Shown here in pieces: positions 14,441-19,865 of a stretch of 32,496 nt of DNA. Numbering within the stretch: position 1 is the stretch's first letter; each line of letters begins with the position of its first letter. The notes beneath the pieces were generated by a model. It searched no databases. It worked only from the letters and a program-made list of their open reading frames with translations, and had not been told where the DNA came from. The DNA comes from Propionicimonas sp. (GTDB taxonomy: Bacteria; Actinomycetota; Actinomycetes; Propionibacteriales; Propionibacteriaceae). Made by a program: the position numbers and the translations under genes. The DNA is taken from assembly GCA_030158185.1 (NCBI GenBank), contig JAOATP010000223.1:1-32496 (forward strand). Reading direction: 5' to 3'.

Positions 14441-17206
14441 TCAGCCGCGGCCGGTGAGTTCCCAGGCGTCGCCGCCCTCGTCCTCATCCCAGCCGGGCAC
14501 GTCCTCGGAGCCGGCCAGCGGGTCGCTCGGATAGCGTCCGCCCGCCTGCGCCTTGGTGTGGGCGTCGCCGTCCAGCACGTATGCCGTGTCGCCGCTGTCG
14601 CCGTCCACCACGCCCGGCACGCCTTCGGGCACCCAGGCCTCGGCCGGGACATCCTCACCGCGCAGGAGCGCGAGGGTCGTGGGCAGGTCATCGGGCTTGA
14701 CGAGGACCTCGCGCGCCTTGGAGCCCTCCGACGGCCCGACGATGCCGCGGGACTCCAGCAGATCCATGAGCCGACCGGCCTTGGCGAAGCCGACCCGCAA
14801 CTTGCGCTGCAGCATCGACGTCGACCCGAACTGCGTCGTCACGACGAGCTCGGCCGCCTGCAGCAGCACCTCGAGGTCATCCCCGATGTCGTCCTCGACC
14901 TGACGGCTGGCGGCCACCGGAACAACGACGTCCTCGCGGTACTGCGGCTGCAGTTGCAGCGTGACGGCCTTGACCACACCGTGGATCTCCGACTCGGTCA
15001 CCCAGGCACCCTGGACACGCATCGGTTTGGAGGTCCCCATCGGCAGGAACAGTGCGTCGCCCTGACCCACCAGCTTCTCGGCGCCGGGCTGGTCGAGCAC
15101 GACCCGGCTATCGGCCAGGGACGAGGTGGCGAACGCCATCCGGGAGGGCACGTTGGCCTTGATGAGGCCCGTGACGACATCGACGCTGGGGCGCTGGGTA
15201 GCCAGGACCAGGTGGATGCCGGCTGCCCGCGCCAATTGGGTGATCCGGACGATCGACTCTTCGACGTCCCGAGGCGCGACCATCATGAGGTCGGCCAACT
15301 CGTCGACGATGATCAGCAGGTAGGGGTAGGGCGTGATGACCCGCTCACTGCCGGGCAGCGGGGTCACCTTGCCGGTGCGCACCGCCTTGTTGAAGTCGTC
15401 GATGTGCTTGAACCCGAAGCTGGCCAGGTCGTCATAGCGCTGGTCCATCTCGCGCACGACCCATTGCAGCGCCTCGGCCGCCTTCTTGGGGTTGGTGATG
15501 ATCGGCGTGATGAGGTGCGGAATCCCCTCATAGGCGGTCAACTCCACGCGCTTGGGGTCCACGAGGATCATCCGGACCTCCTCAGGCGTGGCCCGCATGA
15601 GGATCGAGGTGATCATCGAGTTGACGAAGCTGCTCTTGCCCGAACCGGTCGCACCGGCGACGAGCAGGTGCGGCATCTTGGCGAGGTTGGCGATGACGTA
15701 CCCGCCCTCGACGTCCTTGCCGACCCCCATGACCATCGGGTGGTCGTTGGCCCGGGCGGTCTGGCTGCGCAGCACATCGCCCAGCGACACGGTCTCGCGG
15801 TCGGTGTTGGGGATCTCGATGCCGATCGCGGACTTGCCGGGGATCGGCGAGAGGATCCGCACGTCGGCCGACGCGACGGCATACGCGATGTTCTTGGACA
15901 ACGCGGTGACGCGCTCGACCTTGGTGGCCAGACCCAGCTCGACCTCGTAGCGCGTGACCGTCGGCCCACGGCTGAACCCGGTGACGGAGGCGTCGATCTC
16001 GAACTGCTCGAACACCTGGGTGAGCGACTCCACGACCCGATCGTTGGCCGCCGAACGCGCCTTGTGGGGTGCGCCAGGGGCCAACAGCGCGTTGTCGGGC
16101 AACACGTAGGCGATATCCCCGGCGAGCGACAACTGCTCCCCGCGCAGCGGCAGGGTACTGGTCGGCGGCGCGATGAGTTCCGCCTTGCGCTTGCCCGCGC
16201 CCGCTCCCCCACCCGCGCGGGTGGCCGGCTCGACCGGCGGTGCGTCGTGGGCGGTGGGATCGGTCGACTCGATGGCCGGCTCGGGCTCGGGACGTCGTTG
16301 CCCGGGCCGCAGCCCCTTGCGCCCGGCGCCCTCGCCCGGCGCCTCGGCGGCCTGCTCGAAGGCGTCATCGCCATCGCGCTTGGCAGCCAGGTCAATGACG
16401 GGCCGGCGCGAGCGCTTGGCCGCCCCCGTCGCGGCACCGTCGTCGGTTTCGGTCGGCGCCGGGGCCCGCCCGAGGATCCGGTCACGCACCTCACGCAACC
16501 GCTGCGGGATCATCCGCACCGGGGTCGCGGTGATGACAAGCAGCCCGAAAAGGCCGAGCATGAGCAGCAGAACGAGCGCCCCGACGGGCGAGACGGCGGC
16601 GGCCAGCGGGCTGGAGGCGAGGAAGCCGAAGATGCCTCCGGCTGCGCGCATTCCGTCGGCACCGGCCGGCGGCGTCGGTATGCCGTCCGCGAGGTGGGCG
16701 ATCCCGCAGGCGGCGAAGGTCAGGGTGAGAGTTCCGACGACGACCCGGTTGGTCGTCGCGTCGTCATCGGGAGCGCGAAGCAGCCGCAGGCCGAACACGA
16801 GCAGCACCAGCGGCAGGGCGTAGGCGATCCGTCCGAACGTCCCGGCGGCGACAGCGTGGACGACGTCGCCGATGACCCCCTGGAAGCCCCACCACTCACG
16901 CGCCGCAACGACGATCGCGACCGCGATGAGCAGGAAGCCGACACCGTCACGACGGTGCTCCGGCTCGAGTTCGGCGGCGGAGTGGCCAACCTTGCGGACG
17001 GCGCTGCCGGCGACGTGCGACACCCCGAGCCAGGCTCCGCGCACGGCCCGCAGCGGGAACGGCATACCGCCGCCCTTGGGCCGCCGCGAGGACCGGGGGG
17101 CGCGCCGGGGTGTGCCGGTGCGCGACCGGGGGTTTGCGGAGCGCGCGGACGTGCTCCGGGTGGTGGTCTGTGGGCGTGCGGACGCTCCAGACGGTCGTGT
17201 CGCCAT
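14441..17206 (-). CDS. ftsK: DNA translocase FtsK/SpoIIIE
   Basis: Septum-located ATPase that pumps chromosomal DNA during division. The 921-residue protein has a basic, Ser/Arg-rich N-tail (1-50), four membrane segments (about 85-250), an acidic/Pro linker (about 270-360), the alpha/beta RecA-like motor with Walker A GATGSGKSS (K524) and Walker B LLIIVDELADLMM (about 630-640), and the DNA-reading gamma winged helix (about 795-865, SMLQRKLRVGFAKAGRLMDLLESRGIVG). The start is the ATG at 17206: the frame extends upstream, but family proteins begin with this MATRPS-like tail, and a TAACCT -10 box sits seven bases before it. The linker is short, as in many actinobacteria. Confidence 0.96.
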   Translation of the reverse strand: MATRPSGASARPQTTTRSTSARSANPRSRTGTPRRAPRSSRRPKGGGMPFPLRAVRGAWLGVSHVAGSAVRKVGHSAAELEPEHRRDGVGFLLIAVAIVVAAREWWGFQGVIGDVVHAVAAGTFGRIAYALPLVLLVFGLRLLRAPDDDATTNRVVVGTLTLTFAACGIAHLADGIPTPPAGADGMRAAGGIFGFLASSPLAAAVSPVGALVLLLMLGLFGLLVITATPVRMIPQRLREVRDRILGRAPAPTETDDGAATGAAKRSRRPVIDLAAKRDGDDAFEQAAEAPGEGAGRKGLRPGQRRPEPEPAIESTDPTAHDAPPVEPATRAGGGAGAGKRKAELIAPPTSTLPLRGEQLSLAGDIAYVLPDNALLAPGAPHKARSAANDRVVESLTQVFEQFEIDASVTGFSRGPTVTRYEVELGLATKVERVTALSKNIAYAVASADVRILSPIPGKSAIGIEIPNTDRETVSLGDVLRSQTARANDHPMVMGVGKDVEGGYVIANLAKMPHLLVAGATGSGKSSFVNSMITSILMRATPEEVRMILVDPKRVELTAYEGIPHLITPIITNPKKAAEALQWVVREMDQRYDDLASFGFKHIDDFNKAVRTGKVTPLPGSERVITPYPYLLIIVDELADLMMVAPRDVEESIVRITQLARAAGIHLVLATQRPSVDVVTGLIKANVPSRMAFATSSLADSRVVLDQPGAEKLVGQGDALFLPMGTSKPMRVQGAWVTESEIHGVVKAVTLQLQPQYREDVVVPVAASRQVEDDIGDDLEVLLQAAELVVTTQFGSTSMLQRKLRVGFAKAGRLMDLLESRGIVGPSEGSKAREVLVKPDDLPTTLALLRGEDVPAEAWVPEGVPGVVDGDSGDTAYVLDGDAHTKAQAGGRYPSDPLAGSEDVPGWDEDEGGDAWELTGRG

Positions 17207-17213
17207 GATCCGG

Positions 17214-17219
17214 AGGTTA
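17214..17219 (-). promoter_or_regulatory. -10 box of ftsK (leaderless)
   Basis: TAACCT on the minus strand lies seven bases before the ATG at 17206. There is no purine-rich ribosome site before that ATG, in keeping with a leaderless mRNA. No clear -35 box. Confidence 0.4.
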
Positions 17220-17294
17220 CGCCACCAGCCACGCCAACCCCATGCGCCACACGCGTCACAGCCGCGAAATTCCGTCTCAGAACCCGGACCAGGC

Positions 17295-17324
17295 TTCACA
17301 GGCCGCATCACGTGCCGTTATCTT
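17295..17324 (+). promoter_or_regulatory. Promoter of the riboswitch-aminotransferase transcript
   Basis: A -35 box TTCACA (17295-17300) and a -10 box TATCTT (17319-17324) are 18 bases apart. The predicted start, A17331, is two bases before the first base of riboswitch stem P1, so the RNA would begin at the aptamer. Confidence 0.6.
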
Positions 17325-17332
17325 CTACCCAA

Positions 17333-17460
17333 GGTCATGAGTGTCAGCGCACAGCCCCGGCTTGCTGATCGGCAACCCTCCTCTGCGGCGGGGTGCTCCG
17401 GGTGACGACCGGGCTTGTCAGCGGACCTCGCTGACCGGCAAGCGCGGACCCGTCACCCGG
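17333..17460 (+). ncRNA. SAM-IV-like riboswitch with expression platform
   Basis: The leader matches the actinobacterial SAM-IV riboswitch as I know it. P1 pairs GGTC (17333-17336) with GACC (17407-17410). P2 pairs CAGC (17345-17348) with GCTG (17364-17367). The SAM-core word CGGCAACC follows, then a P3-type GC stem and GGGTGA. The P2 loop CCCGG (17356-17360) can form the pseudoknot with CCGGG (17398-17402). Downstream, GTCAGCG/CGCTGAC (17417-17423 with 17429-17435) makes a hairpin. GTCACCCGG (17452-17460) is a perfect nine-base complement of 17398-17406 and would disrupt both the pseudoknot and P1, so it looks like the switching strand. The ribosome site AGGAG (17475-17479) follows. Assignment is by eye; a covariance-model search was not possible. 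Confidence 0.82.
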
Positions 17461-17486
17461 GCCCACGGACCCGCAGGAGACCTCCG

Positions 17487-18881
17487 ATGTATGCCGCATC
17501 GCTCGCCACCGCAGAGCCGCTGACCACCACGCCGCTCACCCGCCGTCCGCAGGGCGACTTCAGCGCCGCGTGTACGCAGCGGCTGCCTGGGACGACGGCC
17601 GACGGCCTGGTCGTCCCCACCTCCCGAGGCCCGCGCGACTACGCCAACCTCGACCACGCCGCGTCGACCCCGGCCCTCACCGTGGTTGCGGAGGCCGTCG
17701 AGCGCACCCTGCGCACCTACGCCTCGGTCCACCGCGGCAACGGCTTCGCCAGCCGCGTGACCAGCGAGTGGTACGAGCAGGCCCGCGAGGAGGTCGCCCG
17801 CTTCATCGGCGCCCGCGAGGACGACTTGGTGGTCTTCACCCGCACGACGACCGATTCGTGGAACCTGCTGGCCCGCACCCTTCCGGCCGACACGACCGTA
17901 GTCGTCTTCGCCTCCGAGCACCACTCGACCCTGCTCCCCTGGGGCACGCGCACCTCGGGCGCGACCGTGACCCTCCCGGTGCCGCGCACCGTCGAGGACG
18001 GGTTGGCCTGGCTCGACAGCGCCCTCGCCGAGTCGACCGGGGCGCACACCCTCGTTGTCGTCTCCGGCGCCTCGAACGTCACCGGCGAGGTCTGGCCGGT
18101 CGAGCAGATCGTCGCCGTGGCCCACCGGCACGGCGCCCGGGTCGCCCTCGACGCCGCGCAGCTTGCCCCGCACCGGGCGGTCGACCTCGCCGCCTCCGGC
18201 GTCGACTACGTCGCGTTCTCCGGCCACAAGCTCTACGCCCCCTACGGCGCAGGCGTCCTCGCCGGTCGGGCCGACTGGCTCGACGCCGCCGAGCCCTACC
18301 TCGTCGGCGGTGGCGCGACGGCTCGCGTCGGCCAGTGCGGGATCACCTGGGCCACCGGTGCGGCGCGTCACGAGGGCGGCAGCCCCAACGTCGTCGGCGC
18401 CGTCGCCCTCGCCGCTGCGTGCGCCGTCCTGAAGGAGCGCCGGGAGGACCTCGCGCGCTACGAGCACACCCTCGCCGAGCGCCTGCGCCGCGGCCTGGAG
18501 CAGATCCCCGGCGTGCACACCCACTCACTCTTCGGCGCCGGCTCCGACCGGGTCGGCGTGGTCGCCTTCACAATCGACGGTCTGGACTCCTCCCTCGTGT
18601 CGACCGCTCTGTCGGTCGAGCACGGGATCGGCGTCCGCGACGGCAAGTTCTGCGCCCACCCGCTCGTCGACGCGCTCCTCGCCGACGGCGACGAGGGCAC
18701 CCCCACGACGGCCGTCCGGGCCAGCCTGGGCCTGGCCTCCCGCCCCGAGCACGTCGAGCGGCTCGTCTCAGCGGTCACCGAACTCGCGGCCTCTGGCCCG
18801 GGCCTGACCTACACCCGTGGGCCGCAGGGCTGGGCGCCCGAGTCCGACCCGCGCGTCGTCGACCTCCCCCGCCCCTGGTAG
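17487..18881 (+). CDS. Class V PLP aminotransferase, cysteine desulfurase-like
   Basis: Fold-type I PLP enzyme of 464 residues. It shows NLDHAASTPA (54-63), H146 in SEHHS (ring stacking), D222 and Q225 in LDAAQLAPHR, the PLP lysine K248 in FSGHKLYAPYGAGVL, and C389 in GVRDGKFCAHPL, the position of the SufS-type catalytic cysteine. About 40 extra N-terminal residues precede the fold. The ATG at 17487 has AGGAG seven bases upstream. A SAM-IV-like riboswitch precedes it, so it should be expressed when S-adenosylmethionine is low, which ties it to sulfur amino acid metabolism. Reaction and substrate are unproven; a cysteine desulfurase or lyase role is the best guess. No suf genes lie beside it. 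Confidence 0.88.
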   Translation: MYAASLATAEPLTTTPLTRRPQGDFSAACTQRLPGTTADGLVVPTSRGPRDYANLDHAASTPALTVVAEAVERTLRTYASVHRGNGFASRVTSEWYEQAREEVARFIGAREDDLVVFTRTTTDSWNLLARTLPADTTVVVFASEHHSTLLPWGTRTSGATVTLPVPRTVEDGLAWLDSALAESTGAHTLVVVSGASNVTGEVWPVEQIVAVAHRHGARVALDAAQLAPHRAVDLAASGVDYVAFSGHKLYAPYGAGVLAGRADWLDAAEPYLVGGGATARVGQCGITWATGAARHEGGSPNVVGAVALAAACAVLKERREDLARYEHTLAERLRRGLEQIPGVHTHSLFGAGSDRVGVVAFTIDGLDSSLVSTALSVEHGIGVRDGKFCAHPLVDALLADGDEGTPTTAVRASLGLASRPEHVERLVSAVTELAASGPGLTYTRGPQGWAPESDPRVVDLPRPW

Positions 18882-18956: not shown

Positions 18957-19865
18957 TCAGCGCCAACTCGCCCAGACGAGGGCGTGATCAGTGCCGGCGA
19001 TGACCTCCGAGCCGGCGCCGGTGACCGTTAGTCCCCGAGCCAGGATGTGGTCGATCTGGACGAACGGCGGCAGCCATCGCCGCCCCAGCGGCCAGGTGCG
19101 GACCCACCCGGCGCCGACGGCCCGGTGGGCATCGACGAGGCCGTCAGCAACTTGGCGATAGCCCGGATGGTCGGCAGAGGCGTTGAAGTCCCCCGCCAAC
19201 ACCAGGGGTATGCCGTCCGGCTGGCTATGCGCCCACGTCGCCAGTCCGTCGAGTGCTGAGCGCCAGAACCCGAGGTTCGGATCGGTCGGGGGCATCGGGT
19301 GGACGGCCCTGATCAACATCGGGCGCCCGGCAGGGGCCGAGCTCGTGCCGGGGAGATCCACCCGAGCGACCGGCTGGCTGAGGTTGACCTCACCGGGGAA
19401 GGTCGGCGTGGGCAGTTCCGTGAGGGGGAATCGGCTACGGATCATCGTCCCGTCAGCGCCCGCACGGGGATGCCCCGAGACAAAGGGCAGCATGGCCTCC
19501 AACCCTGCGGCGCGCAGCAGGTCGACGGCGGACGGAGTCACCTCCAGCAGGACGAGGATGTCGACGTCCAACGCCCGAACCCGCTCGGTGAGGGCAACCG
19601 CGTCGGCCCGTCCGTATTGCAGATTGCTCGACATGACGACGACGTCGTCCGGCCCCGGCTCAGCCCGGCCCGAGGGGATGACGAACGGCGCGGCACCGAC
19701 GAGGACGACCACCGACGCGATGGCCCCGACCAGGGCGGTCCGCCGCCGCCGCGACACGGCGGCCAGCAGCGTGGTCGCCACGATGACGATCCCCGCGACA
19801 GGGACGACGGCCTGGACGACGGCGACAAGGAAGGTCGCCTGGTCAAGCCAGCGCACGGCATACAT
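18957..19865 (-). CDS. Membrane-anchored endonuclease/exonuclease/phosphatase (EEP) family protein
   Basis: The 302-residue protein has two N-terminal membrane segments (about 12-38 and 43-65), then an EEP hydrolase domain (about 75-302) facing outward by prediction. Motifs are MSSNLQYGRAD, LVLLEVTPSA (metal glutamate), VLAGDFNAS, QIDHIL and a final GTDHALV with the catalytic aspartate-histidine pair. The ATG at 19865 is used; the frame is open a little further upstream but offers no ATG, GTG or TTG before the stop. Many relatives have three membrane segments. Possible substrates are nucleic acids, phospholipids or inositol phosphates; the sequence does not decide. Confidence 0.88.
   Translation of the reverse strand: MYAVRWLDQATFLVAVVQAVVPVAGIVIVATTLLAAVSRRRRTALVGAIASVVVLVGAAPFVIPSGRAEPGPDDVVVMSSNLQYGRADAVALTERVRALDVDILVLLEVTPSAVDLLRAAGLEAMLPFVSGHPRAGADGTMIRSRFPLTELPTPTFPGEVNLSQPVARVDLPGTSSAPAGRPMLIRAVHPMPPTDPNLGFWRSALDGLATWAHSQPDGIPLVLAGDFNASADHPGYRQVADGLVDAHRAVGAGWVRTWPLGRRWLPPFVQIDHILARGLTVTGAGSEVIAGTDHALVWASWR

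Follow-up and report, generated by a model that had tools for sequence, protein, structure and literature searches.

The cysteine-desulfurase-like gene at 17487-18881 of the window (the whole stretch of 32,496 nucleotides analyzed here) is preceded by a SAM-IV riboswitch aptamer. Comparison of related leaders suggests that this riboswitch probably lowers expression of the gene when SAM is plentiful, by an exchange between the pseudoknot PK-2 and two alternative hairpins, A and B. Without SAM, the strand s1, whose first two bases are the terminal GG of the PK-2 3' strand, would pair with strand s2 to form hairpin A, and strand s3 and the adjoining Shine-Dalgarno (SD) sequence would be free. With SAM, the aptamer, including PK-2, would keep that GG and weaken hairpin A; the released s2 would then pair with s3 to form hairpin B, which would cover the ribosome site and turn translation off. 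The order of events and the OFF direction given here are those that we infer.

The aptamer and its promoter

The sole Rfam match in the whole window is SAM-IV (RF00634) at 17333-17450 on the forward strand. It spans the full model (positions 1-116) and scores 104.3 bits (E 2.1e-18) in the covariance search, against a gathering score of 38. A sequence-only reading of this DNA had proposed the SAM-IV class, with RF00634 as the expected top hit, and its coordinates within 17295-17486 are correct; this segment contains the promoter, the entire aptamer and a short platform that reaches to the start codon. The score confirms 17333-17450 as a SAM-IV aptamer by class, and this copy would presumably bind SAM. 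The P1 and P2 helices and the P2-loop pseudoknot drawn in the same reading can be assigned from the Rfam alignment and from the cryo-EM topology given in excerpts of PMC6890682. P1 consists of GGUC (17333-17336) and GACC (17407-17410). The P2-loop pseudoknot PK-1 has 5 bp, as judged from sequence, between CCCGG in the P2 loop (17356-17360) and CCGGG (17398-17402), in the strand before the P1 3' strand. The PK-1 3' strand, the joining region and the P1 3' strand together occupy 17398-17410. The P5 hairpin lies at about 17413-17439.

The second pseudoknot, PK-2, connects CUGCG in the P3 loop (17383-17387) with CGCGG (17443-17447), whose final GG doubles as the start of s1. Its pairing is supported in 259 distinct SAM-IV RNAs (11 others were skipped), with CCGCG:CGCGG in 192 and compensated variants such as TCGCG:CGCGA in 4. 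In the window, PK-2 has four Watson-Crick pairs and one U-G pair that occurs in no other of the 259 RNAs compared.

Within 17100-17700, the one promoter-like site found is TTCACA-18-TATCTT (17295-17324, forward strand; TTCACA at 17295-17300 and TATCTT at 17319-17324); shuffled sequences give a mean of 0.0. The aptamer match begins 8 nt after the -10 element, so the RNA is expected to start at about 17331-17333. Footprinting of the -10 element in relatives agrees with this position: among 187 non-redundant leaders of this gene (taken from 230), 109 have a TANNNT hexamer whose end lies 6-9 nt upstream of the aptamer, compared with a mean of 4.1 and a maximum of 12 in 200 shuffles. This supports a transcription start at the aptamer, where the sequence-only reading had placed it. 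An RNA start was observed 2 nt before the SAM-IV match of Corynebacterium glutamicum cg1478, according to Table 2 of PMC3890552.

The downstream gene and its placement

The gene on the forward strand at 17487-18881 encodes a class V aminotransferase of 464 aa. Its product matches PF00266 with 268.4 bits (gathering cut-off 21.5) and PDB entry 5j8q with 184.6 bits. The best NCBIfam model is SufS (TIGR01979), for which the score of 267 bits lies below the curated cut-off of 475.1. Residues K248 and C389 do not vary among the nine relatives aligned; as in SufS, they would be the PLP lysine and the catalytic cysteine, respectively. Five related genomes each encode a separate protein above the SufS cut-off, which sets the gene at 17487 apart from the housekeeping SufS. 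The SD sequence AGGAG lies at 17475-17479 on the forward strand. On the reverse strand, a gene for an endonuclease/exonuclease/phosphatase-family protein (18957-19865) is located between the aminotransferase and RNase J genes, and related proteins occupy the same position in L140 and L141.

The pairing of riboswitch and gene is widespread. Of 394 genomes sampled from the class, 262 contain SAM-IV, and the same gene lies 3' of the riboswitch in 64 of 128 oriented SAM-IV loci; a further 11 of 139 loci, with ambiguous orientation, were left out of this count and restored later for the leader comparison. Searching from the protein, we found SAM-IV upstream in 76 of the best 80 named loci. In the nearest family, both the aptamer and the PK-2 strand are present in 88 of 90 loci. 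Two published studies report SAM-IV leaders in front of Streptomyces lividans SLIV_26975, annotated as a cysteine desulfurase (PMC8079986), and of Streptomyces clavuligerus CRV15_21540, a class V aminotransferase gene (PMC8269248). Thus, SAM-IV before genes of this kind is already published for Streptomyces, and the riboswitch itself is ordinary: it belongs to an established class and precedes a gene for which such a leader has been described.

The bin to which the window (contig C223) is assigned is 80% complete and carries a second RNase J on contig C162. The RNase J of the window shares 59-66% identity with the RNase J proteins of its nominal genus; with the proteins from Humibacillus, Janibacter, and Phycicoccus genomes it shares 82%, 78%, and 78%, respectively. 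The aminotransferase was found in no other genome of the bin's genus. The gene order with rnj and ftsK is common to the window, Janibacter, Humibacillus, and Leekyejoonella; NCBI taxonomy places Humibacillus and Janibacter in Intrasporangiaceae and Leekyejoonella in Dermacoccaceae. Most likely, judging from these sequence comparisons, the contig is mis-binned and belongs in the Humibacillus/Janibacter/Leekyejoonella neighborhood. Because the contig looks mis-binned, the bin's own family was rejected as the source of relatives.

A conserved three-strand platform in relatives

In the relatives, the PK-2 3' strand CGCGG is followed by s1 (mostly GGACCC), s2 (mostly GGGTCC), and a GACC-like s3 that lies against the SD. 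Hairpin A is formed by s1 and s2, and hairpin B, beside the SD, by s2 and s3, so that s2 is common to both. We scanned non-redundant leaders of the same gene for these hairpins. The 80% identity filter reduced 230 leaders to 167, of which 150 were scored; 12 of the other 17 had no recognized SD, and in five the SD was called too early. In addition, 12 of 215 leaders without a PK-2 strand had been left out of the leader comparison, as had two of 90 in the nearest family.

Hairpin A, anchored on the GG of PK-2 and with at least 6 contiguous base pairs, is found in 134 of 150 leaders, compared with 37.2 in shuffles (maximum 51). Hairpin B with at least 6 bp is found in 89 leaders (shuffles 43.0, maximum 57); at a threshold of at least 5 bp, 121 leaders contain it, only modestly above the shuffles (89.6, maximum 100). 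Mutually exclusive hairpins A and B that share at least 3 nt occur in 118 of 150 leaders, compared with 24.2 in shuffles (maximum 38). In the 145 scored leaders with a hairpin B of at least 4 bp, its end falls between 4 nt before the SD and 3 nt inside it, a range that reflects the scan's own limits.

The strands also covary. The score is 6.41 for a leader with its own s1 and 5.36 with s1 dealt from other leaders (s.d. 0.07, maximum 5.57 of 500 permutations). For s3 the values are 5.09 and 4.40 (s.d. 0.09, maximum 4.67 of 200), based on 119 of the 150 leaders, as those with the SD nearer than 30 nt were left out. Covarying s1/s2 pairs include GGACCA/TGGTCC (L165, L318), GGGTCC/GGACCC (L008), GGGCCT/AGGCCC (L157), and GGATCG/CGATCC (L332). 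Both the permutations and the shuffles keep shared ancestry, and the 80% identity filter reduces relatedness rather than removing it. A MAFFT alignment of 55 leaders (four of 59 references were left out) misaligned s2 in several rows, e.g., L318-L333, and therefore pair counts were taken from anchored helices, shuffles, and permutations.

Since hairpin A needs the GG that is used by PK-2, hairpin A and PK-2 compete. Seven leaders are too short to accommodate A and B, and the SD or the start codon comes immediately after PK-2; these are the truly short platforms among the 17 leaders dropped from the scan. In four of the seven, the PK-2 strand ends with GA rather than GG. Very short platforms of this kind, in which PK-2 is followed at once by the SD or the start, were noted in L142, L144, L145, L147-L149 (Kribbella), L091, L194, L316, L327, and L329. 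Their structure suggests direct blocking of the ribosome site by PK-2.

A different arrangement was observed in 28 of the 142 leaders examined for this gene, where a conserved short open reading frame, M-x-x-R-M-R-stop, comes after the SAM-IV platform and the SD of that platform. Among other SAM-IV leaders, a related frame with R-M occurs in 8 of 61, and seven of these eight contain cysteine codons (e.g., MCCCRMN, MTCRMRR). The leaders in which such frames were noted include L045, L050, L180, L189, L203 and others, of the Streptomyces type, and also L031, L034, L047, L100, L114, L117, and L123. Such frames may encode a leader peptide whose translation the riboswitch controls. Leader peptides with cysteine codons are known before cys operons, as stated in excerpts of PMC1262725.

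A wider model can be drawn from these leaders, tentatively and with a likelihood that we place a little below even. SAM-IV before this gene would signal via PK-2, whose 3' strand is the first strand of the anti-sequestor A, and PK-2 stabilized by SAM would hand s2 over to the sequestor B. The short leaders, in Kribbella and others, would have dropped this relay, the SD right behind PK-2 being blocked directly. In the window, part of the relay would have disappeared and a long anti-aptamer helix would have been acquired. The gating of PK-2 by SAM is a conjectural step of this model. In cryo-EM structures, the fold of SAM-IV, including PK-2, does not differ between the SAM-bound and the SAM-free RNA (PMC6890682), and a 2024 review states that the two structures look alike and that the conformational change is unknown (PMC11477058). 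With a conserved strand exchange that has two bases in common with PK-2, the conformational change of SAM-IV can be addressed directly by a few paired mutations. We found no description of the three-strand platform in the literature searched, which did not extend to the founding paper (Weinberg 2008).

The platform of the window and the anti-aptamer strand

In the window, s1 is GGACCCG (17446-17452), homologous in position to the conserved s1 of the relatives; s2 is CGGGCCC (17458-17464), and s3 is GGACCCG (17467-17473), all on the forward strand. Most relatives have T where the window has C17462, which faces A17448 in hairpin A and A17469 in hairpin B. Because of the A17448-C17462 mismatch, the window has only 2 contiguous base pairs in hairpin A, fewer than the 6 used in the scan; with the mismatch allowed, six of seven pairs form. 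Hairpin B has 4 bp, between CGGG (17458-17461) and CCCG (17470-17473). Thus, the window is not among the 118 leaders with mutually exclusive A and B. Hairpin A with the mismatch is predicted at -7.1 kcal/mol, compared with a family median of -10.0, and hairpin B at -4.6 kcal/mol (-6.5 as its own minimum), compared with a median of -7.8.

One could ask whether the resemblance is due to chance or whether the copy is a dead relic, its platform inactivated by drift. The mismatch present in both A and B and the unique U-G pair of PK-2 (one of 259) would fit such decay; however, the score of the aptamer greatly exceeds the threshold, its conserved core is preserved, and the promoter, the SD, and the open gene are all intact, which makes this explanation highly improbable.

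The sequence-only reading had proposed another switch, based on the exact complementarity of GTCACCCGG (17452-17460) to CCGGGTGAC (17398-17406). The strand exists, and it extends to 11 bp, including one G-U pair, between 17451-17461 on the forward strand and 17397-17407; the duplex is predicted at -22.7 kcal/mol. In relatives, such a strand is not enriched. Helices of 7 bp or more with the P1/PK-1 strand are found in 37 of 115 non-redundant leaders, compared with 34.2 in shuffles (maximum 43), and in 14 of 62 leaders of the closest family, compared with 19.8; at least 8 bp are found in nine of the 62, compared with 8.5 (the 80% identity filter had reduced these sets from 142 and 89 leaders, respectively). 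The anti-aptamer strand was therefore rejected as a conserved switch on both leader sets.

A local version would be a rewiring specific to this lineage, in which 17451-17461 pairs with 17397-17407 in the absence of SAM and destroys P1 and PK-1, while SAM prevents this pairing. Relative to the aptamer-constrained, pseudoknot-free fold, the window gains 16.8 kcal/mol when folded freely, more than any other of 148 leaders (median 7.3; two of 150 had no value), and its hairpins A and B are weakened. In L140/L251, the nearest relative (75-76% protein identity; both have the same leader), GTCACC stands at the corresponding place, but CGGG does not follow it directly, and 6 extra nt precede GGGTCC; because of these extra nucleotides the long complement of the window looks recent. 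The evidence from the window itself is mixed, since 33 of 500 shuffles of its own platform equal the folding gain. When the window's platform is shuffled, a complement of 9 bp or more to the P1/PK-1 strand arises in 1.5% of 5000 cases, and one to any part of the aptamer in 21% of 2000. The anti-aptamer fold is the computed minimum-energy fold of the window, although 20 of 200 shuffles reach an equally good energy; in this fold the SD is paired with P3, which leaves no simple ON state. Taken together with the shuffle-level counts in relatives, this makes the local rewiring distinctly unlikely as the explanation, while it is a serious rival in the window. From the leader comparison, the three-strand exchange beside the SD appears the likelier switch than the anti-aptamer strand, and by homology the relay is the likeliest mechanism in the window too, where it would work as in the relatives.

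A second exchange proposed in the same reading was not borne out. It relied on a hairpin at 17417-17435 that repeats GTCAGCG of P2 (17343-17349) at 17417-17423. In the Rfam alignment this hairpin is the core of the canonical P5, and it was rejected as an exchange partner.

Translation or transcription

Control of translation is plausible, given the conserved hairpin at the SD and the lack of a U-tract. The sequence-only reading had seen no T-run terminator, and this held: we found no terminator-like site in 17100-17700, and an intrinsic terminator was rejected. Transcription attenuation would instead require that, with SAM bound, RNA polymerase be stopped by hairpin A or B, or by Rho acting on the untranslated leader. 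Excerpts of PMC8269248 describe terminator classes without U-tracts in the GC-rich S. clavuligerus genome and, for CRV15_21540, a premature transcription unit with a drop into the gene among the strongest. However, the hairpin of the window sits against the SD of the gene, no terminator-like site accompanies it, and the Streptomyces leaders differ from the window in having an extra short ORF before the gene. We consider attenuation unlikely and translational control by the PK-2/A/B exchange the preferred reading.

Comparison with known systems

Compared with SufS (TIGR01979), the gene product keeps the Lys and Cys positions that are catalytic in SufS, whereas its score of 267 lies below the cut-off of 475.1. 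Compared with SAM-IV as modeled in RF00634, all model positions are matched, and P1, P2, P3, P5, PK-1, and PK-2 are assignable on the cryo-EM topology; the window differs by its unique PK-2 U-G pair and by a platform weaker than those of its relatives. The leaders of SLIV_26975 and CRV15_21540 have the same riboswitch class and the same kind of gene as the window. In Streptomyces leaders, a conserved short ORF of the form M-x-x-R-M-R separates the platform from the gene, whereas the SD in the window serves the gene directly.
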